DNA from: Gelidibacter japonicus
GTDB taxonomy: Bacteria > Bacteroidota > Bacteroidia > Flavobacteriales > Flavobacteriaceae
Assembly (NCBI RefSeq): GCF_010725055.1
Contig: NZ_BJKB01000009.1
Coordinates: forward strand, 62,001 to 126,000
Reading direction: 5' to 3'
DNA: 64,000 nucleotides
Under the pieces are notes generated by a model that was not told the DNA's origin, did no database searches, and saw nothing but the letters and a program-made list of their open reading frames with translations. Shown here one piece after another: positions 8,896 through 21,504 of the stretch (the first letter of the stretch is position 1; every line of letters starts with the position of its first letter). The position numbers and the translations under genes are program-made.

Positions 8896-10143
8896 CTAAA
8901 AGCTCAACGGAACATCATAAGCCATCTCTTTACGACGGAATAAGAAATCACCATTTCTTACCGATGCTAATACATCTACTCTTTTGCGAATCGCTTCATA
9001 AACGGTTGATTCATTAAGAACGATAAAGTTAGCAGCTTTACCTACTTCTAAACCGTAACTGTCATGAATGTTTAAACAACGGGCACCATTGTAGGTGATC
9101 AAATCAAAAACTGTCTCAATCTCTTTTGGAGACATCGTTTGCGCCAAGTGGATGCCATTGTCCAAAATATTCATCATATTCCCATTTCCCATGGGGTACC
9201 ATGGATCGTTGATGGAATCTTGGGCGAACGCCACATTAATTCCAGATTCGATAAATTCTTTCACTCTTGTCAATCCTCTACGCTTTGGGTAAGTATCCTG
9301 ACGTCCTTGTAAATAGGCATTTTCAGTAGGACATGAAATGAAGTTCATCTTACTCTTTTGGAATAAATCCATCATCCTAAAGGCATAGGAATTATCAGCT
9401 GAACCAAACGAACAGGTGTGACTCGCTGTGGTTCTGGTACCATAATCCTCCATAAGGACCAGCGCATTTAATAATTCCACAAAGCGCGAATGGGTATCAT
9501 CAGTTTCATCACAATGCACATCAATCATCTTGTCGTATTTTAAAGCAAGACGGACGATATCGTGCACGGATTTTTCTCCGAATTCTCGTGCGGGTTCGTA
9601 ATGTGGAATTCCTCCCACAACATCAGCTCCCATTTTCAGCGCTTCTTCCACTAATTCAAGTCCGCCCTTATACATGTACATACCTTGCTGTGGGAAAGAA
9701 ACAATCTGAATATCAACGATGTCCTTCAGCTCTTCCTTCATTTCTAACATCGCTTTTAGTGCTGTAAAGTTTGGATCTGTAACGTCAATATGGGTACGGA
9801 TATGTTGTACACCTTGGGAAACTTCATCTTTAATTCCTTTCATCGCCAATCTCTTTACACTTTCTACAGTGAGCGTTTCCTTGAATTTAGGCCATAGTTC
9901 AATGGCTTCAAAGAGGGTACCTGAACCAGCTCCCGCTTGTCCAAGTTCAGATAAGGTATAGACATAATCTAAATGCAAATGCGGATCTACGTAAGGTGGT
10001 AGAACAAGTTTGCCGCCGAGGTCGATTTCTTCTTCACATTTAGGTAAATTAGTCCCGATCTGGGTAATTTTCCCGTGTTCAACTATCATTTCTGTCGCTA
10101 CATCGTTGCGATATATCTTTGCATTAAAGAATTTTTTTTTCAT
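8896..10143 (-). CDS. codA: Cytosine-deaminase-type amidohydrolase
   Basis: A 415-residue metal-dependent hydrolase of the CodA/cytosine deaminase branch. Ligands and catalytic residues are in place: His55 and His57 in DPHLHLD, His210 and Glu213 in HCDETDD, a histidine in ASHTCS, and Asp in AQDSINDPWYPMGNGNM. That last segment aligns with the CodA active-site region. The expected reaction is cytosine to uracil plus ammonia in the cytoplasm, although related enzymes act on isoguanine, creatinine-like or triazine substrates. There is no signal peptide. The possible partner transporter is the downstream MFS gene. Confidence 0.78.
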   Translation of the reverse strand: MKKKFFNAKIYRNDVATEMIVEHGKITQIGTNLPKCEEEIDLGGKLVLPPYVDPHLHLDYVYTLSELGQAGAGSGTLFEAIELWPKFKETLTVESVKRLAMKGIKDEVSQGVQHIRTHIDVTDPNFTALKAMLEMKEELKDIVDIQIVSFPQQGMYMYKGGLELVEEALKMGADVVGGIPHYEPAREFGEKSVHDIVRLALKYDKMIDVHCDETDDTHSRFVELLNALVLMEDYGTRTTASHTCSFGSADNSYAFRMMDLFQKSKMNFISCPTENAYLQGRQDTYPKRRGLTRVKEFIESGINVAFAQDSINDPWYPMGNGNMMNILDNGIHLAQTMSPKEIETVFDLITYNGARCLNIHDSYGLEVGKAANFIVLNESTVYEAIRKRVDVLASVRNGDFLFRRKEMAYDVPLSF

Positions 10144-10589
10144 TGTAAATCTGAATTTAATTAATATTAGTTATAAAAATTGCTGTGTCTACTATAGCCA
10201 CAAATCGGAGACTGGCTCCGAAATGGAGAGGCTTTGACAACTTTTTTAAGATAAGGCTTTATTTCCTTGCTTGAGCTGACATTGGTCATAGAGGAGCAAC
10301 TCTTAACAAAATTTTACCTATTAATAGTCGGTAACTGGCAAAATCAGTTGATGGGATTAAGTAAGCGGAATAGTTCAAGAGTAATCATACCTGATCAATA
10401 ATGGAATTGCTTATCAAAGCCTTGGTTTCGTCACTTCCTGAATGGCATAAAAAAACAGCTTGGGTAATTCCAAGCTGTTTTTGCACTTACAAATTTTAAT
10501 ACGATCCTATTATTTAAAGGATAAAATAAGGAACAAGAAGGGATGCCGTTGTTAGACCGAGGTGCCTTCAGAGTTTTAAAACAAGTGTA
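10144..10589. other. Intergenic region after the CHAT-locus genes
   Basis: 446 bp with no supported gene. It holds a short hairpin (CGGAG/CTCCG at 10206-10220) and the strong terminator at 10449-10482. Confidence 0.5.
10449..10482 (-). terminator. Rho-independent terminator closing the CHAT locus
   Basis: A perfect 13-bp stem (10451-10463 with 10470-10482) has a 6-nt loop and a seven-T tract on the minus strand. It terminates minus-strand transcripts arriving from the CHAT locus, and the symmetry would also work on the other strand. Confidence 0.88.
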
Positions 10590-10814
10590 TCAATTTGTAT
10601 CAAAACATTTATAGGGACCTTTGAACCCGTCAATTATTATTCTTGCAGGAAGATCGCTTTTGAAGAAGGTTCTGTAAATGTTGTTTATAGCAACTATGTC
10701 TGCGATGTTTTTAAGTTGAATATTTATGTTGCCGGCATCGTCCAAATCATGGTCGATACTTTCTGTAATTGCCTTAATGCTGTTTAATTTTACAGGTCCA
10801 TGAACGATCAGGAT
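10590..10814 (-). pseudogene. RidA-like (YjgF/L-PSP) gene remnant
   Basis: An open stretch of 74 codons without a start reads like the middle and C-terminal part of a RidA-family deaminase: VKLNSIKAITESIDHDLDDAG, then VAINNIYRTFF and LPARIIIDGF, matching the family pattern of a NEVYxxFF segment followed by PAR. The N-terminal half is absent (an in-frame TGA is at 10815), and the usual LPKGALVEIE end is replaced by unrelated residues before a TGA. It lies directly after the orphan secreted gene and before the terminator. The match was made by eye, so the family call is moderate. Confidence 0.5.
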
Positions 10815-10827
10815 TCAAAGAAACCAA

Positions 10828-11961
10828 TCAATCCCAATTGTCCATTTCCAATTTGTTCCAGGTTCGGTTATTGATAAAATCGTCTTTGTTAGGGTCATAT
10901 TTATAGTTGTCTGAGCCTACATATTCTCCGTGTGTGTTAATCCAATAATGGTCATTGGTGGGGTCTATCTTATAACGTTCGCCTGTGTTTGGGTCTTTCA
11001 CGTTGGTTTTTCCGAGAATATAATCACTGATGCGTTCTTGGCGCTGTGCATTTGCATCTTGGCTTGCTTCCCATTGTTTGTGGTTCCGTTCCCGTGATGC
11101 CAAATTTGCCTCATATTGTCTTTGGCGTGCTTCCCTTCCTCTTAGGAATGCCGCTTCTCTTTGTGCGTGGGCCTCGTTGCTTTTTCGGATGGTGTATTCC
11201 GTTTGTTGGTTCATAGTACTAATCCACTGTGGGTTGATTTGCCTATTTATCAATCCGTTGAGGTAATCTGTTTTTGCTTCTTCAAAATAAGCCGAGGGAG
11301 CGCCAATGGCACTTCCCGCATATCCCCAATAGATATGATCAGAAGTCTGTTCAACGTAATGATGCAAAACGGTGAGCCACTTTGTGCCGTCCGGATCTAT
11401 CCATTCAATACCTAATGCTTTAATCTGTTTTGGGTTTTGGTCTACCTTAAATAGCAAGGCATCAAAATTTTTGTAAAAATCCGCTATTTGATTCAAGGGA
11501 TAGGTTTTGGTAATTTTTCTGTTGATGGAATTGCCATAGTGCACAAATATTTGGTCTATGACCTGTTCAATACTTAGCGGATATTGCACTTGCATTCCGG
11601 TTGCCTGATATAGCTGAAGCGTAGTTGGGTCATTTGAATAGACATAGTTCATTCCCTTTTCTCCATACACTTTTATGCCGTTTGGGCCGGTATAGGCAAA
11701 TTCGCCATTGGTGTGTTGTTGCCATGTTTCCGGGAATGGCAGCCGCTCTACTACCATGCCGTTGCGAGTGTCTTTCACATAAAAATATTGGAGTCTTTTT
11801 TTTAAATTTTCCATCTGGTTGGACTCTTCTTGGTTTTCAATGCCATTTGTTGCTGTAATTGATTTGTTTGTCGCTATACCGTTATTCGCTTTTGAAGAGG
11901 AAAGACAGAAATGGAAGATTATAGCAAATATGAAAATGACAATTAGTTTAAAATTCTTCAT
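10828..11961 (-). CDS. Secreted protein of unknown function
   Basis: A 377-residue protein with no family recognised. A hydrophobic N-terminal segment (residues 5-22) followed by SSSKANNG suggests a signal peptide. Residues about 60-230 are a mixed region rich in aromatic residues (WQQHTNGEFAYTGPNG, YSNDPTTLQLYQATGMQVQYP). Residues about 245-310 are a highly charged, probably coiled-coil helix with alternating Arg, Glu, Gln and Ala. The C-terminus repeats short GERYKIDPTNDHYW/GSDNYKYDPNKDDF modules like those in proteins annotated as having a peptide-repeat tail. It begins 5 bp after the stop of the T9SS-sorted gene, so the two are almost certainly co-transcribed. Confidence 0.75.
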   Translation of the reverse strand: MKNFKLIVIFIFAIIFHFCLSSSKANNGIATNKSITATNGIENQEESNQMENLKKRLQYFYVKDTRNGMVVERLPFPETWQQHTNGEFAYTGPNGIKVYGEKGMNYVYSNDPTTLQLYQATGMQVQYPLSIEQVIDQIFVHYGNSINRKITKTYPLNQIADFYKNFDALLFKVDQNPKQIKALGIEWIDPDGTKWLTVLHHYVEQTSDHIYWGYAGSAIGAPSAYFEEAKTDYLNGLINRQINPQWISTMNQQTEYTIRKSNEAHAQREAAFLRGREARQRQYEANLASRERNHKQWEASQDANAQRQERISDYILGKTNVKDPNTGERYKIDPTNDHYWINTHGEYVGSDNYKYDPNKDDFINNRTWNKLEMDNWD

Positions 11962-11965
11962 CCTT

Positions 11966-13831
11966 TTAGTTTTTTATAAGTTTCAGCGTTTTTGAAACTC
12001 CTTTTGAAGACACTTTTACAAAATAAATTCCTGCGGAAGTATTTATTTCCTGCTCAATGGTTTTGATTGAAGCGTATTTATTTGAAGAAATTTGCTGCCC
12101 GAGCATATTGTGAATTTGCAAGTTTACATCTGAATAATCCTTTCCAAGATCAATAGTGAAATGACCGCTTGAAGGATTTGGATACATTGCAAGATTGCTC
12201 AAGGTATTGTCTTCGGTCCCCAAAACGATGTTGGTTATTTTTAGAGTAACGTTGGTAGGATTACAGATGACATCAAAAGTATAATCGTGATTGTCGTAAT
12301 GGGCGGTAACGGTAGCGGGAAGGTTGCAAGTGGTAATGCTGTTTGCGGTAAGAATTACAAATTCGTCATTCTGATTTGCTTCATAGTTTAGTGAAACAAG
12401 AATATCCCCGTCCAGACTGGCAGTGCCGTTTACATCAAAAACGTCGTATTCGGTTCCAGCTGTAGGTCCAGATATTTCAGTGGCCAAGATTGCGTTTGCA
12501 GAAGAGCTATAGTTGCCCGCATAGATCAAGGTTCCAAGCATGCCTCCAGGAGAAATGGTGCCATCATAAACTAAATTGTTTTGGATGGCCACAGCTCCGT
12601 TGCCTGTCAACATGCCGTCACCTTCAAAAGTTCCAAAACCAAATTTTAAAAGTCCTGTTTCGGCTATAATTTTTCCGGGTGCCGAATTTGTTACGTTGGC
12701 ATCAATGAAAAAGTTACCTGTACTAGGTTCCTTTTTTATTGTTCCTGAATTATTCAGAGTTACAAATCCATCTTGTCCTGAAATTGCCCCGTCAGATAGT
12801 ATGTTTATAACACCTGACGCAGTATTGGTTAAGGTTGGACTTCCGTAACCAAAATAGTAGGTGCTAGTAGAATTAATATTTATTGAACCTTCATTCTTTA
12901 GAGTAGAATTTCCTCTAATAGACCCAGACCCATCTAAATTCAATACTCCTTTATTTGTGAGTGTTCCTTCCCCTTTAAATTCACCTGATATCCAATTAAA
13001 ATCTCCAGAACCATTAAAGTTTAAAGTTGCCTCTGTACTCGGTGCTACAAGGAGTTTTCCAGCCCAGTTTATAGGTCCGTCTAATTGCCCAGATAGGGTT
13101 CCGTTCAAAGTGAAAGTATGATTAAAATTTAAAACTGCATCATTGGCAACATTGTAAGTGCCGTCAGTAAGTACAGTAGCAGGGTTGTATAAGGTTAAAG
13201 ATCCATTTTCTACGGATACAGTACCGTTATTGTTTTGTAAGGGTATTTCAATTCGATACGCGCCTGAGCCATGGGCTCTTTTTATAAGTCCAGAATTAAT
13301 GATAGTCATTTCTCCCGATTGTTGATATAGACCACCATCTTCTGCGTTTAAATTTATAATGCCAGAGGCCGTATTGTTTAAGGTAGGAGTTCCGTAGCCC
13401 GCATAAATAGTTCCGCTTTGATTTAAATTTATAACCCCGTTATTGATAATGGTCAAGGAACCTCTTACCGATCTTAAGTGAGTAAAAACAATGGTTCCAT
13501 TATTTGTCAAAGTACCGCTACCAATCAATTCGGTATAAGTCATGTCTAAACTTGCATCAGCGTCTATGGAAGAGGCATCTGAAAAAGTAATGTTGCTCGC
13601 TGTTGCTTGGGCATTTCCTTGAAGTGCGAATGATTTAATATTGGCGCCATCAATTATAATATTGCTTCCGGTAGGAATGATAACATCATTGGTAGAACCC
13701 GGAATACCAGAAGGATTCCAGTTTTCGGCAACATTAAAGCTACCACCCAAAGGTCCTATCCAAGTTTTGGTCTGTGCTGAAATAGTCAAGCAAAAAATGC
13801 TCAATACCGAAAAAAATAATAGTCTTTTCAT
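11966..13831 (-). CDS. T9SS-sorted secreted repeat protein (beta-helix-like)
   Basis: A 621-residue protein. The signal peptide (about 1-20, ending ISAQ) is followed by a WIGPLGGSFNVAENWNPSGIPGSTNDVIIP segment like those opening many secreted beta-solenoid proteins. About 400 residues of imperfect repeats follow, built from units such as SGTLTNNGTIVF, NTASGVINI and LNNSGTIKK, and probably form a parallel beta-helix. The C-terminal 75 residues are a type A T9SS sorting domain (MYPNPSSGHFTIDL, IHNMLGQQI, AGIYFVKVSSKGVSKTLKLIKN), which predicts export and surface attachment or release. The repeats carry no catalytic motif. The gene has its own upstream motif at 13906-13932, shared with the sigma gene, plus a hairpin in the leader. 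Confidence 0.88.
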   Translation of the reverse strand: MKRLLFFSVLSIFCLTISAQTKTWIGPLGGSFNVAENWNPSGIPGSTNDVIIPTGSNIIIDGANIKSFALQGNAQATASNITFSDASSIDADASLDMTYTELIGSGTLTNNGTIVFTHLRSVRGSLTIINNGVINLNQSGTIYAGYGTPTLNNTASGIINLNAEDGGLYQQSGEMTIINSGLIKRAHGSGAYRIEIPLQNNNGTVSVENGSLTLYNPATVLTDGTYNVANDAVLNFNHTFTLNGTLSGQLDGPINWAGKLLVAPSTEATLNFNGSGDFNWISGEFKGEGTLTNKGVLNLDGSGSIRGNSTLKNEGSININSTSTYYFGYGSPTLTNTASGVINILSDGAISGQDGFVTLNNSGTIKKEPSTGNFFIDANVTNSAPGKIIAETGLLKFGFGTFEGDGMLTGNGAVAIQNNLVYDGTISPGGMLGTLIYAGNYSSSANAILATEISGPTAGTEYDVFDVNGTASLDGDILVSLNYEANQNDEFVILTANSITTCNLPATVTAHYDNHDYTFDVICNPTNVTLKITNIVLGTEDNTLSNLAMYPNPSSGHFTIDLGKDYSDVNLQIHNMLGQQISSNKYASIKTIEQEINTSAGIYFVKVSSKGVSKTLKLIKN

Positions 13832-13872
13832 AATATTTGGTTTTACGTTAATGGAATATATTTTGAAACTCT

Positions 13873-13886
13873 CAGCAACATTGCTG
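13873..13886. promoter_or_regulatory. Hairpin in the leader of the T9SS-sorted gene
   Basis: CAGCAA, a 2-nt gap and TTGCTG are flanked further out by GAAAC/GTTTC, giving a small stem 42 bp upstream of the start codon. Its function is unknown. Confidence 0.35.
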
Positions 13887-13905
13887 TGGTGGGTTTCTAT
13901 TCAAC

Positions 13906-13932
13906 TAACGGAAGCGTTGAAAAAGGTCATCA
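13906..13932 (-). promoter_or_regulatory. Copy 1 of the shared CHAT-locus upstream motif
   Basis: On the minus strand this 27-bp block begins TGATGACCTTTTT and ends TCCGTTA. The identical outer blocks occur before the sigma gene (19033-19059), and 23 of 27 positions agree. The block lies 75 bp upstream of the T9SS-sorted gene. The arrangement of a TGACC block and a CGTT block about 14 bp apart is compatible with an ECF sigma-factor promoter, which is an inference. Confidence 0.6.
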
Positions 13933-13949
13933 CTGTTTTTTAGAAAAAA

Positions 13950-13984
13950 GAAGAAAGAATAAAGAGGAAAGAATAAAGAGAAAA
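13950..13984. repeat. Degenerate heptameric tract (GAATAAA-type)
   Basis: Five consecutive 7-bp units of the form GARNAAA, including a perfect 14-bp tandem duplication at 13953-13980. It is intergenic, between the CHAT gene and the T9SS-sorted gene. Confidence 0.7.
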
Positions 13985-14101
13985 GACTGGTATCGGAAGG
14001 TTGATGACTGATACGGAATGCTTGCTCTGAAACCTATTCTTGACCACGATCTGAAGTTTTAATGGCAATCACAAAAAAAGCGGAGTCTTATAAAGTTCTG
14101 A

Positions 14102-17100
14102 CTATAAAGACGCTGATTTTTTTCTTTTCAGAATAAAAATAATAAAGAAACCTATTAATAGCACCCCGAAAACCCACCACCAAATTGGATGGATTCCTGT
14201 TTGCAATTCAATGGGAGCGGTGTCGCCAATCAATACCATGCCTGCCCAATATTGGGGCGATACCGTGCGGCCTTTGGCATTGGTAATGAAGTTTAGCTTT
14301 GCATTCCTCAGGGCTTCATCTTTTGCCATTCCTTCAGCGAGATTATCGTAGAAATTTTGAATGATTTTCACACTGCTTTCTTCGTCAATCTGCCAAAGAC
14401 TGGTCAAGATGCTTTCGCTGCCGGCATAGTTGAATGCATGTGCCAAAGAAATCATTCCTTCACCGGGCTGGTAGGTAGGTTTCCCTGTTTCGCAGGCCGT
14501 TAAGATGGCAAGATTTGAACTTAGATTGGTGTTGTAGATCTCGAAAGTGTACAGTGAATTTTCGTCGTAGCTGTCATCCCGCGCGTACTTTTTCGCAAAA
14601 ATAAGACGAGAAAATTCAGGACTTATATTGTTGCTTTCTGCATGTGTGCCAATGTGGATTATTTTGTGCTCACCAGCATTGGCTTCAAAAATCTGTTTCG
14701 TTGAATTTTCATTTAAGAACGATTTTCCATTAAAAATTTTAGAGTAATTTTTAGCCAATTCCACACTACTGGGTTGCGAGAGTAAAGTGAGGTACGCATT
14801 ATCACTATTAACGGAATCTGTAATGGCAATTTTGTATTCGCTTTTCATTTTTTTAGTGAAACCGGGCGCAAAGGCAACAAAATTTTCAGAAAACATTTTG
14901 GGCTTTTTGTTTTCATTTAGTAGCAACAGACTAAAGTTGTACGAAATGGAATGGCTCGCCAGCAAACTATGAGTGGCAAGTTCTTTATAGCTTTTTATTT
15001 TTGATGGGGTTAGGGTTTCAAAACTTAGATTGAAGAGGGCCCCATCTGGAATAATAATAACTTTTTCGTTACTAATGCGGCTGCTCAAAGGTTCCCATAA
15101 TTGCCGATAAAGCTCATAAAGTAAGGTGGACTCTTCATCGAAAGTTATCTTTGGATCGATTAATTTTTCAATGTGATTTTTTACAGATTCGTATTTTAGG
15201 GGAAGAATACTTCGGTTTTTGCTGTCCAATACAATTCCGTACAAACTTTTATCGATAAACAAATAGCGAATTACTGTAGTGTTGGCAGGAATATATTTTT
15301 GTAAATCTTTAAGTGAAACATCCAAAGTGGCATACTTCATTTTGTAATATTTGGGAAAGGCTGTTTTCAAAGAATCTAAAAACGAATTATAAATAGTACT
15401 CGCCTCGAGATAATTTTGAAATGATGTGGTTGAATCTTCACTTAAAGCGCTGAGGTTAACGGCTTCTTTTTTTAACTCGCTTTCCCTTTTTATAACCGCT
15501 TTCGGAACATTTACAATATTGATTTCATCTTGAAGCGTCAGCTTAGAACGAATGGTATAATAAACACTGTTTTCGTGGGTTTCTATAAGATTGGTAAGGT
15601 ATTTTTTGTTTTCGGTTTGGGTGTATAAATCGTAATACAGCTGTTTTGTGAATCTGTAAAGGCCCAAAAAATTTGAATACAGCACATTCACATTGTCGTC
15701 TTTTGAAATCAGGGTTTTCTGTTCCTCAAGAATTTTGAAGGCATCGAACATAGTTTTCAAAAGACTTTTTAGAAAAACAGAATCTTTGGTTGTGTTCTGT
15801 GCGTAAAGTGCTTCCGATTTCGCTAAAATCAACAAAGGCTTGCGGTAGGCCAATTTTAAAGCATCGAGTGTCGTGCTTTTATTTTGGGTGCGGGTATCAA
15901 TATACTCTATTCCTTTTTCGCTCCATTCGATGGCTTTTGGGTAATCGTCAATAGTGTAATACACTTCCGAAAGGTTTAGCATAAGAGCGATGAGATCGCT
16001 ATTGTTTTCACCTCCGTTCATTTTTAAATAATTATAGGCATTTAAAGAAGTGGTTACTGCGGCTTCACTTTTACCGTTTTTCGCCAAAAACGAGCTTTTA
16101 TCCTGTGCAAAACTTAAGTAGGTATCGTCTAAGTTTTCGCCGAGGGCGATTTTGTATAATTTTTCGGCATCGTTGTATGCTTTTTCCGCCTTTTCTATTT
16201 CGCCTTTTCGGTCGTAACAATTCGCCAAATTAGCAGTAGCAATGGCCTGCCAATACACATCAGGACTGGAATCGGCATCGTACATCGCAAGCACTTTCTC
16301 TAAGGAAATAATGGCTTTGTCTGTTTCTTTTAAAGCCATTTGCGATTGGGCCAACAGTATAAGTGCACGTGGAATTTCGGGATCGCCCGGGAGGTACAGT
16401 TGATCGCGATTATTGTAAATGTACGCCATAAGTTTATAGGCCCTATCTACATGGCCAATGTTAGAGTAAAGCGAGCCAAGGTTTGAAACGCCTGTCCATT
16501 TTAGGCGTTTACTGCGCGAAACAATGCGAACGTCATGAGATTCTTTTATGACAAAATTGCAATCCTGAATGAGTTTTTCCAGCGTTTGTAGGGATTCTGA
16601 AATATTGCCGCGAGCCTCCATTACCAGCGCCATATTCAATTTAATGCCCGAAGAGGAATATACTTTATACACCGAATCCCCTTGTATTTTTTGTAAGGTT
16701 TTGATAGCATTTTCAAAGAAGTTTTGGGCACTGTCCAATTTTTGGGACTGCCACATCATTATGCCAAAAAAATTGTAGACGTCAGCGATCTTTTTATAGT
16801 TCTTTATTTCAGATTTTTTGAATTCTGAAAGTGCTTTTTTAGCCTGTTCGTTAGCGTCCAAAAATTTTCCGGATATGTAATAGGAATAGGTTAGCGCATA
16901 ATAAGCTTCGCCAATTTCGTTGTGCGTGGCATCGGGGACGGACCGAATTGTATTTAGTGATTCTTCAGCAGCTTTGAAAGATTCGGTGATGTTTCCCAAT
17001 TCCTCATATAGTTGAGAAAGTCCCGACAATGCTATATGTAGAGCACGTTTGGATGCTCCGAGCGTTTTTAGGTTTTTAAAAAATGCATCGGCTTTTTTGG

Positions 17101-17365
17101 CCGCATCTTTTGGATTGCTTTTTAAGAGTGCAACCTTCCCTACATATACTGTGTATTGCGCCAAGGAATCTATTTGTTTGGCTTGCTTAAAATTTTCAAT
17201 TTGCGTTTGTAGTGCAGCATCAGCCTCTTTCAATTGATTGTTTAATAGGTAAGAGTCTATCAATTTAATGCCGGATAAATTCGCGTCTTGACCGAAGCTA
17301 TTTTGGAAGAAAACTAAAAAAGCAATCAGGATTAAAAGTAAAAAATTGTTGTATTTGGATACCAT
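14102..17365 (-). CDS. Periplasmic TPR-CHAT domain protein (caspase-like), membrane-anchored
   Basis: A 1087-residue protein. It has an N-terminal signal peptide (about 1-25, ending NSFGQ), then many TPR-like helix pairs (about 30-620), then a CHAT domain (about 720-1045) of the caspase/separase fold. The catalytic dyad is present: His about 908 in HIGTHAESN and Cys about 958 in LTACETG, followed by the characteristic GEGMISLAHAF and SLWQIDEESS motifs. One transmembrane helix lies near the C-terminus (about 1060-1078, WWWVFGVLLIGFFIIFIL) with a basic tail. The predicted topology places the TPR and protease domains in the periplasm. CHAT proteins are often proteases switched on by a bound partner; the target here is unknown. 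The gene follows the sigma factor and the TPR membrane protein on the same strand. Confidence 0.88.
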   Translation of the reverse strand: MVSKYNNFLLLILIAFLVFFQNSFGQDANLSGIKLIDSYLLNNQLKEADAALQTQIENFKQAKQIDSLAQYTVYVGKVALLKSNPKDAAKKADAFFKNLKTLGASKRALHIALSGLSQLYEELGNITESFKAAEESLNTIRSVPDATHNEIGEAYYALTYSYYISGKFLDANEQAKKALSEFKKSEIKNYKKIADVYNFFGIMMWQSQKLDSAQNFFENAIKTLQKIQGDSVYKVYSSSGIKLNMALVMEARGNISESLQTLEKLIQDCNFVIKESHDVRIVSRSKRLKWTGVSNLGSLYSNIGHVDRAYKLMAYIYNNRDQLYLPGDPEIPRALILLAQSQMALKETDKAIISLEKVLAMYDADSSPDVYWQAIATANLANCYDRKGEIEKAEKAYNDAEKLYKIALGENLDDTYLSFAQDKSSFLAKNGKSEAAVTTSLNAYNYLKMNGGENNSDLIALMLNLSEVYYTIDDYPKAIEWSEKGIEYIDTRTQNKSTTLDALKLAYRKPLLILAKSEALYAQNTTKDSVFLKSLLKTMFDAFKILEEQKTLISKDDNVNVLYSNFLGLYRFTKQLYYDLYTQTENKKYLTNLIETHENSVYYTIRSKLTLQDEINIVNVPKAVIKRESELKKEAVNLSALSEDSTTSFQNYLEASTIYNSFLDSLKTAFPKYYKMKYATLDVSLKDLQKYIPANTTVIRYLFIDKSLYGIVLDSKNRSILPLKYESVKNHIEKLIDPKITFDEESTLLYELYRQLWEPLSSRISNEKVIIIPDGALFNLSFETLTPSKIKSYKELATHSLLASHSISYNFSLLLLNENKKPKMFSENFVAFAPGFTKKMKSEYKIAITDSVNSDNAYLTLLSQPSSVELAKNYSKIFNGKSFLNENSTKQIFEANAGEHKIIHIGTHAESNNISPEFSRLIFAKKYARDDSYDENSLYTFEIYNTNLSSNLAILTACETGKPTYQPGEGMISLAHAFNYAGSESILTSLWQIDEESSVKIIQNFYDNLAEGMAKDEALRNAKLNFITNAKGRTVSPQYWAGMVLIGDTAPIELQTGIHPIWWWVFGVLLIGFFIIFILKRKKSASL

Positions 17366-17405
17366 ACAATCTTAATTAATATAATCTGAAATAGCACTTG
17401 CAATT

Positions 17406-17431
17406 TATAATCGCGTTGCTGCACGATTATA
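17406..17431. promoter_or_regulatory. Hairpin between TPR and CHAT genes
   Basis: An 8-bp inverted repeat (TATAATCG at 17406-17413, CGATTATA at 17424-17431) has a 10-nt loop and lies in the 141-bp gap just before the CHAT gene. It could be an RNA processing or attenuation structure. It lacks a minus-strand T tract, so it is not a clear terminator. Confidence 0.35.
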
Positions 17432-17506
17432 TTTTTACAGCTGATTTTTTTGTCACAGACCAAAGTCTGAGGTTGTATTTTAATACGTTTAATTTTAGGG
17501 CTTTGT

Positions 17507-18256
17507 TTATTCTTTTAATGCGTTTAACAATTTGTTGTTTCTTTCAGAAGGATGTGCGTTTAACAGGTCTTTGGCTTCTTCAATTTTTCCTAACTTTATT
17601 TTTGCCAAAGCCGTATAATGGGCTGCGTCTTCTATAAAGATACCGTCGTTAAATTTAGTTGCGGGCTCTAAATATTCCAATGATTTTTCAGCATTACCTT
17701 CGGCTAAATAGGCGACACCTAAAAAGTAATTCAACGTATCATTTTCTGTTTTTTCGGGAAGCAGTTTTTGCCACCAGTTAATGGCTTCTTTATATTCTTG
17801 ACGTTTATAAACAACCATTCCTTCGTAAAAATCATATTCGTTTGAGGCACCCATAACAGTTCGCAAACCTGGGTCTGCTTCAAAATGTGAGGCAAAGATT
17901 TTTTCAGGTGAATTACGGCTTTGAAACATCCAAAGAACTCCAAAGGATACAACCAACGCTACGGCAATAGCATACCAAATAAGCTTTGGGTTCATTTTCT
18001 CGGGAGACAAAATATTCACCTTAGTATCATTTTTATCCACTGAAATATGTTCATGAAATTCCTTTATTTTTGATTGCCTGATTCTATCCTCAATCTGTTC
18101 TCTTACTTTCTTTATGTGTGCGATTTTCGCGTCAACGTTGGGAATTTGAGTCAGCTCTTCATTTAACAAAAGTGTTTTATCCGACGCCTTGTTATGATCC
18201 AGATACCGTTCAATTAGATCCCATTCCAATTGCGTTATTTCAATTTGGGGTTTCAT
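17507..18256 (-). CDS. Membrane TPR protein, possible anti-sigma/adaptor
   Basis: A 249-residue protein. The cytoplasmic N-terminal segment (about 1-88) is charged and helical, with no zinc-binding anti-sigma motif. One transmembrane helix follows (about 91-111, IWYAIAVALVVSFGVLWMF), then a periplasmic TPR region (about 120-249; YEGMVVYKRQEYKEAINWWQKLLP and YFLGVAYLAEGNAEKSLEYLEPA are typical units). A single-pass protein with a cytosolic face, encoded directly after an ECF sigma gene, is placed as an anti-sigma factor would be. The sequence itself does not prove this. The periplasmic TPRs could dock to those of the CHAT protein encoded next. Confidence 0.75.
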   Translation of the reverse strand: MKPQIEITQLEWDLIERYLDHNKASDKTLLLNEELTQIPNVDAKIAHIKKVREQIEDRIRQSKIKEFHEHISVDKNDTKVNILSPEKMNPKLIWYAIAVALVVSFGVLWMFQSRNSPEKIFASHFEADPGLRTVMGASNEYDFYEGMVVYKRQEYKEAINWWQKLLPEKTENDTLNYFLGVAYLAEGNAEKSLEYLEPATKFNDGIFIEDAAHYTALAKIKLGKIEEAKDLLNAHPSERNNKLLNALKE

Positions 18257-18273
18257 TTTTAAATTTTATTTTT

Positions 18274-18336
18274 AACTCATAACTCATAACTCATAACTCA
18301 TAACTCATAACTCATAACTCACAACTCATAACTCAC
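18274..18336. repeat. Perfect heptamer tandem repeat, (AACTCAT)n
   Basis: Nine head-to-tail 7-bp units, seven AACTCAT and two AACTCAC, begin directly after the sigma-factor stop codon and end 18 bp before the TPR gene start. On the coding (minus) strand the unit is ATGAGTT, so each perfect junction contains an overlapping start/stop ATGA. Confidence 0.92.
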
Positions 18337-18338
18337 AA

Positions 18339-18917
18339 CTACATACTATCGTCTCCAAGCGCCAATTCCTTCAACTTTTGGATACACCTATATTTTTTAT
18401 TTTTTGCCGAGGCCTCTTCTATATTTAGATTTTCGGCAATAGTTTTCATAGACATTTTATTGAAATAAAACTGAGTTAGTAGGTCTTTGCATGCTTTTCC
18501 TAAGTTCTCAAATGCGATTAAGGTTATGGACATCTGTTCCTCGCTTTTTTCCATTTCGCTGGTTTGCATTGTTTCATCTGCTGCCAGATGATATGATTTT
18601 TCATCTATTGCAATTGTATTTCTTTTGGTCAGATGCCTCGTTTGGTCTATCCATTTATTTTTCGCAGCAGTAAAAAGATAGGCTTCTATCTCTGTCTTGT
18701 TCTTGGGCTTAAATTTTCCCGTACTCAACTTCTTCCAACACGCGAAAAAAGCATCCTGAAAAACATCTTTGGTATTCTCTAAAGTTCCTCCATTTTTAAG
18801 AATATAATATTTGGTTTTCGGGTATTGGGCAATATAAAATTCCCTTATGGCAACTTCTTTATTCGTTAAAAAAGCATCCAAGAGCGTAAATTGACCTAGA
18901 TTTAGAGTTTCTTCCAT
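18339..18917 (-). CDS. ECF-type RNA polymerase sigma factor
   Basis: A 192-residue sigma-70-family protein with only regions 2 and 4, the size of an ECF factor. Region 2 (about 25-95) carries DVFQDAFFACWKKL and EAYLFTAAKNKWIDQTR. Region 4 (about 130-185) carries LGKACKDLLTQFYFNKMSMKTIAENLNIEEASAKNKKYRCIQKLKEL, the helix-turn-helix that reads the -35 element. It heads the minus-strand CHAT locus. A 27-bp motif 116 bp upstream is repeated before the T9SS-sorted gene, which suggests autoregulation. The downstream TPR membrane protein is the obvious candidate regulator. Confidence 0.88.
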   Translation of the reverse strand: MEETLNLGQFTLLDAFLTNKEVAIREFYIAQYPKTKYYILKNGGTLENTKDVFQDAFFACWKKLSTGKFKPKNKTEIEAYLFTAAKNKWIDQTRHLTKRNTIAIDEKSYHLAADETMQTSEMEKSEEQMSITLIAFENLGKACKDLLTQFYFNKMSMKTIAENLNIEEASAKNKKYRCIQKLKELALGDDSM

Positions 18918-19284
18918 AAAAATTGTATGGAAATATACAATTTTTTTTCACTCAATGTTAAGGTTCAATCATAATACAAATCCTGAATAATTTATAAAAA
19001 GTATGCAGGAATCTATACTTTGTTTAATGATATAACGGAGGGTTTCAAAAAGGTCATCAGAAAATTAGCTAGTTTCTGAAGCTAGATTCTAAGTCTGGGT
19101 TTCAGAGGTAAATTCCTCGGCTTCTTCCGAAGTTTTGCGTTTCATCAAAGAATTTTGTGGAAATTAAAATAAGGCTGCGGCTTGTAGAGCTTTGTCCATG
19201 CCATTGGGAATCAAGGTTACCCAACCCGGTCTGAAGCAGTTCAGGGTTTGATGGGTGATAAACTCGTCACCCAGATTTGGGATG
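18918..19284. other. Upstream region of the sigma gene
   Basis: This gap holds the shared upstream motif at 19033-19059. The remainder, about 19080-19280, has higher G+C than its surroundings but no open frame that could be recognised. Confidence 0.4.
19033..19059 (-). promoter_or_regulatory. Copy 2 of the shared CHAT-locus upstream motif
   Basis: Same motif as at 13906-13932, here 116 bp upstream of the sigma gene. TGATGACCTTTTT and TCCGTTA are fully conserved and the four differences all fall in the middle, as expected for a two-block promoter. Confidence 0.6.
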
Positions 19285-19325
19285 AAAAAAAAGAGGCCAT
19301 TTAATAAGTCATTAAACGGCCTCTT
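19285..19325 (-). terminator. Rho-independent terminator of the metal ATPase gene
   Basis: The stem AAGAGGCC...GGCCTCTT continues inward through TTTAAT/ATTAAA with one mismatch (19291-19325). On the minus strand it is followed by an eight-T tract. It lies 10 bp after the ATPase stop. Confidence 0.92.
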
Positions 19326-19335
19326 ATCTTTCAAT

Positions 19336-21255
19336 TTATCGTTCAGGAATAAGCTTTATTTCCTCGAGAGAAGGCACTTCTTTTGGAGGAGTAGATCGTT
19401 TAAAGCGGCTAATTGGGTTAAAGCTGACTAAACGGATGGCGTTAAGGATTACTAAAAGCACGCTCAATTCATGAATCAGCATTCCTGAGGCTAAATTCAC
19501 GTTTTTTGTCAAGACCCCCGCCAACAACAGGGCGACTGTTCCTACTGCAATAAACATGTTTTGTTTCATGTTTCGCACCGTGGTTTTGGCAAGCTTCACA
19601 GCGTGGGTTAACTTATCAAGATTGTCGGCCATCAGGACCACATCTGCTGTCTCCATGGCGATATCGGTTCCTGCTACCCCCATTGCAATTCCAACATCGG
19701 CAGAAGCAATGGCAGGGGCGTCGTTTACGCCATCGCCCAACATGGCGAGTTTGATACCTTTCCCCATACAGGCTTTAACTTTTAGAGCCTTGTCTTCAGG
19801 GAGCAATTCGGCATATATGCGGTCCAAGCCCAATTGTTCGCCCACTATATTGGCAGTATGCTTATTGTCTCCGGTAAGCATTACCAAGTGTTTAATGCCC
19901 GCAGCCCGGAGGTTGTCTATAGTGTCTTTAGCCTTGTCTCTTATGGTATCGGCAATTGAAATAATCCCCAAGACCTTTTTGTCATCGGCAATAAAGACGG
20001 CTGTATTTCCGGCTCTCTCCTGCTGAGTGGCATAAGATTCCACTTCAGTTTCTATTGTGATTTCATTTTGCACAAGTCCCTTTCGATTGCCGATAAAGAG
20101 TGGTCTTCCATCTAAGTTGACTTCAATTCCGCGACCTTTAAGCACATTCACTTCTGTAGGTTTATTGACGAGTTTTAATCCAGTTTTTTCCGCTTTTTTC
20201 ACAATGGCCCTTCCCAAATGATGTTCCGAGATCACTTCCGCTTCGGCAGCCATGAGGAGTAATTCCTCTTCAGTGATACCAAACCCTTTGATGGCGGTAA
20301 CTTCCGGCTTTCCTTTTGTTAAGGTTCCTGTTTTGTCAAATACAAAAGCGTTTAATTTAGCCAGATTCTCCATGACCTCTCCACCTTTGATCAAAATTCC
20401 ATTTCTGGCGGCGTTTCCTATTCCTGCTACAATCGATACAGGAGCGGAAATCACCAAGGCCCCAGGACAAGCAATAACCAGGAAGGTTAGCGCTAAATGG
20501 ACGTCCTGTGTAATCGCCCAGACGAGGACAGAAAGAACCATAATTCCCGGTGTATAAATGGTAGCAAACTTCTCTAAAAACCGTTGGGTCTTTGCTTTCC
20601 CTTCCTGAGCCTCTTCTACCAATTCAATGATTTTGGCGAAGGTGGTATCCTCTCCAACATTTTCTGCTATAACCTCCAGATATCCACTGTCCAAAATACT
20701 GCCGCTGAATACTTGATCATCCAGACCTTTACTTACCGGAATAGATTCACCAGTAATTGCTGCTTCATTCACAGAGGCATTTCCTGTGATAACTCGACCA
20801 TCTATTGGAATCTTTTCTCCAGTTTGAATGATGACCAAATCATTTTTTATAACCTCCTCTGCCATGATTGTGGAGCGTAAGCCATCGCGGACTACAGTTG
20901 CTTCCAACGGCGCCATGTCCATCAAGGATTTAAGTGAAGCACGCGCTTTTTCTAAAGAACGACCTTCCAAAAAGGCCCCAAAAAGAAACAGGAAAGTCAC
21001 CGCTGCCGATTCAACATACTCTCCAATAATCAGCGCACCAATAACCGCTATAGTCACCAAAAGCTCGATACTGAACATTTTTAGTCGTGACGCTTTCCAA
21101 GCTTTTATAAAAGTTGGAACCCCAGCGACTATAGAAGCTGTAATTAAAAGCGCATCCAATAAGAGGCTGTTCCATTTGAACACATAGGTTGCTATTGCAG
21201 CAAGAAGTAAAATTCCTGCTGCATACATTATTCTATTTACTTGTTTAGCTTTCAT
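19336..21255 (-). CDS. Heavy-metal P1B-type ATPase with altered signatures
   Basis: A 639-residue metal-transporting P-type ATPase lacking an N-terminal metal-binding domain. The actuator motif TGES (168-171), phosphorylation site DKTGT (Asp307) and hinge GDGVNDAP are intact, so it should be an active pump. Two family signatures deviate. The membrane metal site reads Cys263-Pro-Gly instead of CPC, and the usual SEHP dipeptide in the nucleotide domain reads SEHH. Overall similarity is to the Zn/Cd/Co export branch (ZosA/CadA-like), but the altered site makes the metal uncertain. It is expected to export metal from the cytoplasm. The preceding gene encodes a free HMA domain 18 bp upstream, probably its metal donor. 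Confidence 0.88.
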   Translation of the reverse strand: MKAKQVNRIMYAAGILLLAAIATYVFKWNSLLLDALLITASIVAGVPTFIKAWKASRLKMFSIELLVTIAVIGALIIGEYVESAAVTFLFLFGAFLEGRSLEKARASLKSLMDMAPLEATVVRDGLRSTIMAEEVIKNDLVIIQTGEKIPIDGRVITGNASVNEAAITGESIPVSKGLDDQVFSGSILDSGYLEVIAENVGEDTTFAKIIELVEEAQEGKAKTQRFLEKFATIYTPGIMVLSVLVWAITQDVHLALTFLVIACPGALVISAPVSIVAGIGNAARNGILIKGGEVMENLAKLNAFVFDKTGTLTKGKPEVTAIKGFGITEEELLLMAAEAEVISEHHLGRAIVKKAEKTGLKLVNKPTEVNVLKGRGIEVNLDGRPLFIGNRKGLVQNEITIETEVESYATQQERAGNTAVFIADDKKVLGIISIADTIRDKAKDTIDNLRAAGIKHLVMLTGDNKHTANIVGEQLGLDRIYAELLPEDKALKVKACMGKGIKLAMLGDGVNDAPAIASADVGIAMGVAGTDIAMETADVVLMADNLDKLTHAVKLAKTTVRNMKQNMFIAVGTVALLLAGVLTKNVNLASGMLIHELSVLLVILNAIRLVSFNPISRFKRSTPPKEVPSLEEIKLIPER

Positions 21256-21273
21256 TATCTTCTATACCTTTTA

Positions 21274-21504
21274 TTAAGAGGTTATTATCGGGAAGCCTAC
21301 TTTTTCTATCACTTCGGCCAAGCGATCGGAAGAAACTTTTTCTTCGTCATATTCTATTTTCACCTTGCTGGAATTAAAAAGCACTTTTGCTTTTTCTACC
21401 CCTGGTTCTTTGTTGAGAACGCCTTCTATCCTAGTAATACAACTTGGGCAGGTTAGGGTTTCCAATTGAAATCTTACGGTTTTTATTTCTTTTATAGTTT
21501 TCAT
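21274..21504 (-). CDS. Stand-alone heavy-metal-associated (HMA) domain protein
   Basis: A 76-residue ferredoxin-like HMA domain with the metal-binding loop LTCPSCITRIEGVL (Cys-x-x-Cys) and the C-terminal VIEKVGFPI strand. It is the size and shape of a soluble metal chaperone, or of the N-terminal domain normally fused to P1B ATPases. It lies 18 bp upstream of the ATPase and probably passes metal to it. Confidence 0.88.
   Translation of the reverse strand: MKTIKEIKTVRFQLETLTCPSCITRIEGVLNKEPGVEKAKVLFNSSKVKIEYDEEKVSSDRLAEVIEKVGFPIITS

Follow-up and report, generated by a model that had tools for sequence, protein, structure and literature searches.

A conserved sigma factor, TPR protein and TPR-CHAT protease module of Bacteroidota as a candidate route of protease-controlled signalling

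Why should a protease with a CHAT domain and tetratricopeptide repeats (TPRs) be encoded next to an extracytoplasmic function (ECF) sigma factor and a membrane TPR protein? This question is raised by a locus of Gelidibacter japonicus located in a stretch of 64,000 nucleotides (contig NZ_BJKB01000009.1, positions 62,001 to 126,000 of the forward strand), which is called the window here and whose own numbering is used throughout. An earlier note on this DNA had described five genes on the minus strand, and the coordinates as well as Pfam and NCBIfam domain searches agree with that description. Their order is sigma factor (SIG), TPR protein (TPR), CHAT protein (CHAT), a repeat protein sorted by the type IX secretion system (T9SS) and a secreted protein of 377 amino acids (aa). 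The first three genes form a real, widespread and conserved module. For its function we tentatively propose, with doubt slightly outweighing belief, a widespread and so far undescribed pathway of the Bacteroidota, in which the membrane TPR-CHAT protein would act as site-1 protease and cut the TPR anti-sigma factor at the motif DPGLxTxM. The genes of the module are located as follows.

18339..18917, minus strand: SIG, ECF sigma factor, 192 aa (TIGR02937 at 4.1e-20; Sigma70_r2 above its cut-off)
17507..18256, minus strand: TPR, anti-sigma-like protein, 249 aa (TPR_2 just above its cut-off; hydropathy; structure model)
14102..17365, minus strand: CHAT, predicted membrane TPR-CHAT protease, 1087 aa (PF12770; structure model; fold matches)

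The module was followed through 80 named loci, the best of 568 found by CHAT similarity. A SIG-TPR pair lies upstream on the same strand in 45 of them (gap of at most 300 bases) and elsewhere in the locus in 10, while the 25 loci with no pair include contig ends and distant CHAT proteins. Restricted to CHAT scores above 600, at least 1.5 kb of upstream sequence and gaps of up to 500 bases, the pair is present in 45 of 53 loci. An even draw of 249 genomes of the family, in which 3 and then 11 candidates were scored per genome so that gene counts are lower bounds, yielded at least 33 close CHAT genes in 31 genomes and at least 37 close TPR genes in 36; both are shared by 30 genomes (Fisher p 1e-31). 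All of the 30 close CHAT genes (of 33) which have a TPR gene within 500 bp have it on the same strand. The close members were separated from a second group at a gap in the scores (CHAT 1133 versus 525 bits, TPR 237 versus 143 bits). In this second group a TPR gene is found within 500 bp of 26 of 39 CHAT genes, on the opposite strand in 25 of the 26. A CHAT gene is also encoded in 17 of 18 further stretches around weaker TPR matches, the exception (L188) being a 10-kb contig. In addition, 40 CHAT loci from across the wider phylum, most of them the top match of their family, were examined over 13-19 kb each, and 17 encode an ECF sigma factor.

Seven genomes with a CHAT locus lacking the pair were checked. 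Five of these encode a close SIG-TPR pair elsewhere; the other two are an incomplete metagenome-assembled genome (MAG) with a distant pair only (L050) and a genome with a CHAT fragment and no TPR match (L097). The SIG, TPR and CHAT trees over 67 chosen triads agree with r 0.87-0.89, which is partly shared species history; of the 17 wider-phylum loci with a sigma factor the trees include 8, and they omit the duplicates L042 and L065 as well as the loose loci L062, L106, L108, L110, L117 and L119. That the three genes are neighbors by chance was considered and rejected, as their linkage goes far beyond chance. The window genome itself holds five CHAT genes, and a search with SIG gave ten sigma factor matches, the best five of which lie at most 4 kb from these five genes. 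No fusion of the anti-sigma domain and CHAT in one open reading frame (ORF) was found among the ORFs of loci L031-L161, and no description of the triad in the literature searched. The module occurs in relatives of Flavobacterium and looks like a signalling route.

SIG matches the ECF superfamily model TIGR02937 with 72 bits (cut-off 42.9); the Pfam models of sigma region 4 stay below their cut-offs. The TPR gene follows directly downstream after 82 bases, and its product looks like a membrane anti-sigma factor which would bind SIG. Two parts of the protein are important for this assignment.

18047..18232, minus strand: putative anti-sigma domain, residues 9-70 (three model helices; family-level matches)
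17927..17983, minus strand: transmembrane (TM) helix, residues 92-110 (hydropathy; model helix 90-112)

Residues 92-110 are the only hydrophobic stretch, and the single-pass membrane protein of the earlier note is thus retained. The structure model (predicted local distance difference test, pLDDT, 86) places three N-terminal helices before the TM helix and the TPRs after it. The NCBIfam anti-sigma model NF052375 is matched by 23 of 44 N-terminal domains of the TPR family (E up to 1, best 5e-5) versus none of 40 helical CHAT segments of equal length (p 8e-9). A sigma factor gene stands directly upstream of 78 of the 80 ORFs with this domain, as found by a profile built from these same loci. Pfam matches of the 44 domains are scattered (Nif11 in eight, zf-HC2 in three, RskA_N in one), and a profile of the domain found no convincing relative among solved structures. 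The fold search with the whole model returned TPR domains and barely tested the N-terminal domain. The gap between SIG and TPR is filled by 10.3 tandem copies of the 7-base unit TAACTCA (18273-18345), and a four-copy core of this array is present at four other sites of the genome. This repeat could vary in length and tune the coupling of SIG and TPR.

Domain and fold comparison supports the CHAT protein as a protease of the separase/Csx29 kind whose dyad is intact and whose proteolytic activity is predicted. PF12770 covers residues 749-1048 (2e-41, 142.8 bits, cut-off 24). The dyad and the membrane anchor are encoded at these positions.

14642..14644, minus strand: codon of His908, catalytic dyad (H in 50 of 50 family members and in all 167 CHAT ORFs)
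14492..14494, minus strand: codon of Cys958, catalytic dyad (C in 50 of 50 family members and in all 167 CHAT ORFs)
14129..14185, minus strand: C-terminal TM helix, residues 1061-1079, with a basic tail after it (hydropathy)

Hydropathy, which was also used instead of a dedicated predictor for calling signal peptides, gives two hydrophobic stretches, residues 2-20 and 1061-1079. His908, Cys958 and the C-terminal membrane helix had been pointed out before; both residues were confirmed and the stretch at 1061-1079 is in line with the helix. In all but one of 50 family members (49) the last 12 residues carry a net positive charge. The 167 CHAT ORFs correspond to 165 distinct proteins. That the protease might be dead was rejected, as each of the 176 domain hits in these ORFs belongs to a protein which has both residues. 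The two occur together in 162 hits and are split over two hits in five proteins; the remaining four hits are surplus fragments, the other fragment of the protein containing both. The CHAT protein of locus L205 appeared dead by a simple text pattern and has in fact kept both residues. For the CHAT model (pLDDT 85) the best match among solved folds is Csx29; separase and the anti-sigma factor DdvA (PDB 8rot, 8rw5) match as well. A single-sequence search of solved structures with the CHAT domain gave a chance match only and a profile was required. With a profile of the whole protein, only TPR and kinesin-light-chain-like proteins were obtained among the best 60 of 66 matches.

Some CHAT loci are unusual in their gene content. 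L116 (972-18354), from a Bacteroidia MAG, contains six tandem CHAT ORFs, the first of them partial, and two full-length CHAT genes each are present in the triad loci L048, L053, L058 and L085. The fragment of L097 (10001-10645) is a CHAT end of 214 aa, perhaps left over when the module was lost.

If CHAT acts on the TPR protein, where would it do so? The earlier note had placed the cleavage across the periplasmic TPRs. The evidence points instead to a short stretch between the membrane and the TPRs.

17852..17887, minus strand: juxtamembrane periplasmic motif HFEADPGLRTVM, residues 124-135 of the TPR protein (candidate CHAT recognition or cleavage site)

Among the four regions of the TPR protein the membrane-to-TPR stretch is on average the best conserved, with the TPR block 171-180 higher still. 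D128, G130 and M135 are invariant in all 46 CHAT-linked members. Five members come from genomes without a close CHAT partner, two of them without any CHAT and three with other CHAT types, and in all five the score of the juxtamembrane stretch (z -2.3 to -5.2) is below that of every linked member. Their anti-sigma domain, TM helix and TPRs are normal (z -1.3 to +1.2), so that the change is confined to the motif region; it is seen also where SIG is kept, mildly in L181 and strongly in L185. Six further members have their CHAT at another site of the genome; they keep an intact motif (z -0.3 to -1.0) and score somewhat below average in the other regions (z -0.6 to -1.9), and two pairs among the six are more than 90% identical. 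The DPGLxTxM stretch is therefore named as a candidate site at which CHAT may recognize or cut the TPR protein.

These data fit docking as well as cutting. CHAT and TPR might thus form a stable sensor complex which has its docking site at the motif and switches by conformation, with proteolysis being dispensable or aimed at a third protein. TPRs are binding modules, which suits such a complex; the His and Cys residues kept in all 167 CHAT ORFs speak against it, and we regard it as improbable. A precedent for binding is the Cas7-11-Csx29 complex, which according to PMC10028731 (in excerpt) binds uncleavable Csx30 with and without target RNA.

The two secreted proteins raise the question of what is controlled by the module. 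They are encoded downstream of CHAT, and the gene of the 377-aa protein starts four bases past the T9SS gene.

11966..13831, minus strand: T9SS-sorted repeat protein, 621 aa, companion and possible target (TIGR04183 at 1.2e-12; paralogue beside the other triad)
10828..11961, minus strand: secreted protein, 377 aa, companion and possible target or CHAT partner (homologues near triads)
18930..18940, minus strand: promoter-like TTGTATATTTC upstream of SIG (same element before 8 of 45 SIG genes)

The 621-aa protein carries the type A sorting domain TIGR04183 (47.6 bits, cut-off 23), and the paralogue most similar to it within the genome (31% over residues 270-608) adjoins the other full-length triad. 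A Pfam search with E values up to 0.1 gave no family for the 377-aa protein. This protein had been taken for an orphan, a view which has to be given up: it belongs to a family of which loci L031-L121 contain 31 ORFs, although two of the loci enter this count twice. Neighbor and promoter counts were made over 45 same-strand loci (gap up to 500, duplicate L065 dropped). The 377-aa family is found near 21 of these triads, with 20 of 22 members upstream and 21 of 22 on the same strand, and the T9SS repeat family near 11. Across genomes, the gene order of this locus is thus conserved for SIG-TPR-CHAT, and the secreted pair is a frequent and not universal companion of the module. Two more families of secreted appearance, of about 260 and 830 aa, are found near 14 and 9 triads. 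Housekeeping neighbors recur as well (an Era-like GTPase in 11 loci), and shared species history inflates all neighbor counts. Upstream of SIG the element TTGTATnTTTC, which we take to resemble the housekeeping promoter consensus of Bacteroidetes, is present in the window and before 8 of the 45 SIG genes; in 7 of the 8 a TTTG begins 20-21 bases before it. Among the other ORFs of 120 aa or more in those loci it precedes just three, one of which is a CHAT gene.

Five Aequorivita loci (L047, L049, L051, L069, L091) encode CHAT together with the T9SS protein and/or the 377-aa protein and no SIG-TPR pair nearby, the pair being located elsewhere in each of these genomes. In four Aequorivita loci it is the 377-aa protein that stands beside CHAT without a local pair, which suggests that the secreted proteins may be partners of CHAT as well as, or instead of, targets of the sigma factor. 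These loci also favor a reading in which CHAT is an output and not the activator: SIG-TPR would answer another protease or a conformational signal and control CHAT and the secreted proteins, which CHAT would mature or degrade. Both the occurrence of 377-aa homologues near 21 of 45 triads and the convergent arrangement, which allows separate expression, are in agreement with this. It leaves unexplained why the motif is worst without a close CHAT and normal with CHAT in trans; moreover, 24 of the 45 triads have no member of the 377-aa family nearby, and no shared cargo promoter was found. We consider this reading unlikely, but it is to be taken seriously.

How could CHAT then act as the activator? 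In the proposed pathway the cytosolic helical domain of the TPR protein would bind SIG, one helix would span the inner membrane and the TPRs would be periplasmic. The TPR-CHAT protein would be exported and work in the periplasm, held to the inner membrane through its C-terminal helix. A signal might reach CHAT through its long TPR solenoid and cause it to dock on the anti-sigma factor, where it would recognize and probably cut the DPGLxTxM stretch between the membrane and the TPRs. After such a cut, about 20 residues of the anti-sigma factor would still protrude from the membrane. Stubs of that length are the sort of product which site-2 proteases accept. General proteases (a site-2 protease of the M50 family, then cytosolic ones) would clear the stub and free SIG. 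Its likely targets would be secreted and surface proteins, whose genes are often neighbors of the module. We incline slightly to the view that the TPR anti-sigma factor has in CHAT its dedicated site-1 protease, located in the periplasm.

Several observations weigh against this pathway, the topology, sigma binding, cleavage, signal, site-2 step and regulon of which are all inferred. The five TPR proteins without a close CHAT form one clade (support 0.92), which is one loss at best, and as the six members with CHAT in trans also form one clade there is one contrast and not eleven. The least changed of the five, L181 (z -2.3), scores 1.74 versus 1.82 for the worst linked member. Three of the five have no SIG nearby, so a general relaxation is possible, and three of their genomes keep other CHATs. 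The second-group CHAT genes are convergent with TPR and hence not co-transcribed, and their TPR proteins do not keep DPGLxTxM. The more distant same-strand triad L205 (4090-8735; SIG 29 bits, TPR 98, CHAT 473) lacks the DPGL motif in its TPR protein, though the CHAT dyad is present. Every NF052375 match falls below the curated cut-off, the TPR protein of the window has no such match, and the charge of the flanks favors an N-in orientation in just 30 of 49 TPR members. The genome encodes two M50 proteases; since all 14 control genomes have M50 too, their presence here is no specific support. No sigma factor gene was found in 23 of the 40 wider-phylum CHAT loci within the 13-19 kb fetched. A candidate promoter common to SIG and the cargo genes was sought in the 45 same-strand loci, and none was found.

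The module can be compared with known systems, and it looks like a variant of protease-controlled sigma signalling. The site-1 proteases of the RseA/DegS/RseP and RsiW-type systems are not known to be caspase-like. Those systems, mentioned in PMC10028731 (in excerpt), share with the proposed pathway a membrane anti-sigma factor cut outside the membrane near the TM helix; the window module differs in its TPR ectodomain and in the dedicated protease gene adjacent to it.

The earlier note knew of no characterized system of this make-up. This has to be restricted, as Csx29, Csx30 and CASP-sigma work likewise, together with an RNA-guided partner (PMC10028731, in excerpt), and DdvA carries a TPR-CHAT-like part. 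In type III-E CRISPR, Csx29 cuts a sigma inhibitor, its partners being Cas7-11, Csx30 and CASP-sigma; this Craspase cuts Csx30 between residues 427 and 429 and deletion of M427 abolishes cleavage (PMC10028731, in excerpt), while another Craspase system cuts after L407 (PMC9729208, in excerpt). The invariant M135 of the TPR protein, set next to the M427 requirement, is suggestive only. The window shares with Craspase the TPR-CHAT fold with a His-Cys dyad and an ECF sigma factor in the locus, a candidate inhibitor being suggested here by weak family-level profile matches. Csx29, however, forms a complex with an RNA-guided effector and has RNA as its trigger, whereas the window CHAT has, by hydropathy, a signal peptide and a membrane anchor, and its putative inhibitor is a membrane TPR protein. 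No ORF of the window is larger than CHAT (1087 aa). Presumably Cas7-11 would be larger, on which assumption it is excluded from the window; other loci were not searched for CRISPR. CHAT-domain proteins are also found in the gene neighborhood of the ECF54 group, for which proteolytic control without an anti-sigma factor was proposed (PMC8999054, in excerpt); here a membrane anti-sigma-like protein adjoins SIG. Separase, which is eukaryotic and cuts cohesin (PMC9729208, in excerpt), has no sigma link.

The DdvA/DdvS pair of Myxococcus xanthus (PDB 8rot, 8rw5) joins the anti-sigma role and a TPR-CHAT-like part in one chain, DdvA, whereas the window has two separate proteins for them. DdvS governs an antiphage island (PMC12288465, in excerpt), and it could be argued from this and from the TPR-CHAT-like fold in common that the triads are stress or defence switches of the same kind, with the secreted proteins being incidental. 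Four of 32 CHAT domains match the PADLOC BovA models (best 6.7e-6). The commonest neighbor families, however, look secreted or housekeeping from their N-termini, no defence search of the neighbors having been made, and among the five window proteins the PADLOC matches are confined to weak ZorA matches of the 377-aa protein (0.0013) over its coiled part. We hold such a defence role to be very improbable.

Should the proposed pathway be correct, TPR-CHAT proteases would, together with DdvA and Csx29/Csx30, be a recurring class of activators of ECF sigma factors, of which the CRISPR version would be one specialized case. A caspase-like class of site-1 proteases with a testable substrate motif would join transmembrane sigma factor signalling, the puzzling link of protease and sigma factor in Craspase would gain a setting outside CRISPR, and a control route would be predicted for secreted surface proteins in Bacteroidota.

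Finally, the surroundings of the genes were inspected. No RNA elements reach Rfam gathering scores within 9000-21500. A strong terminator had been placed at the end of the gene series.

10449..10478, minus strand: terminator-like hairpin after the last gene (9-bp stem, then T; read by eye)

The hairpin is indeed present past the last gene, but it lies just outside the range given earlier and is absent from the list of the terminator scan. The strong terminator in that list (19291-19325) follows the upstream ATPase gene and not the module. Positions 10591-10799, which separate the last gene of the module from an amidohydrolase gene, are probably a degraded 3' terminal part of a RidA-like gene (PF01042 at 0.002, below the cut-off) and do not belong to the module.
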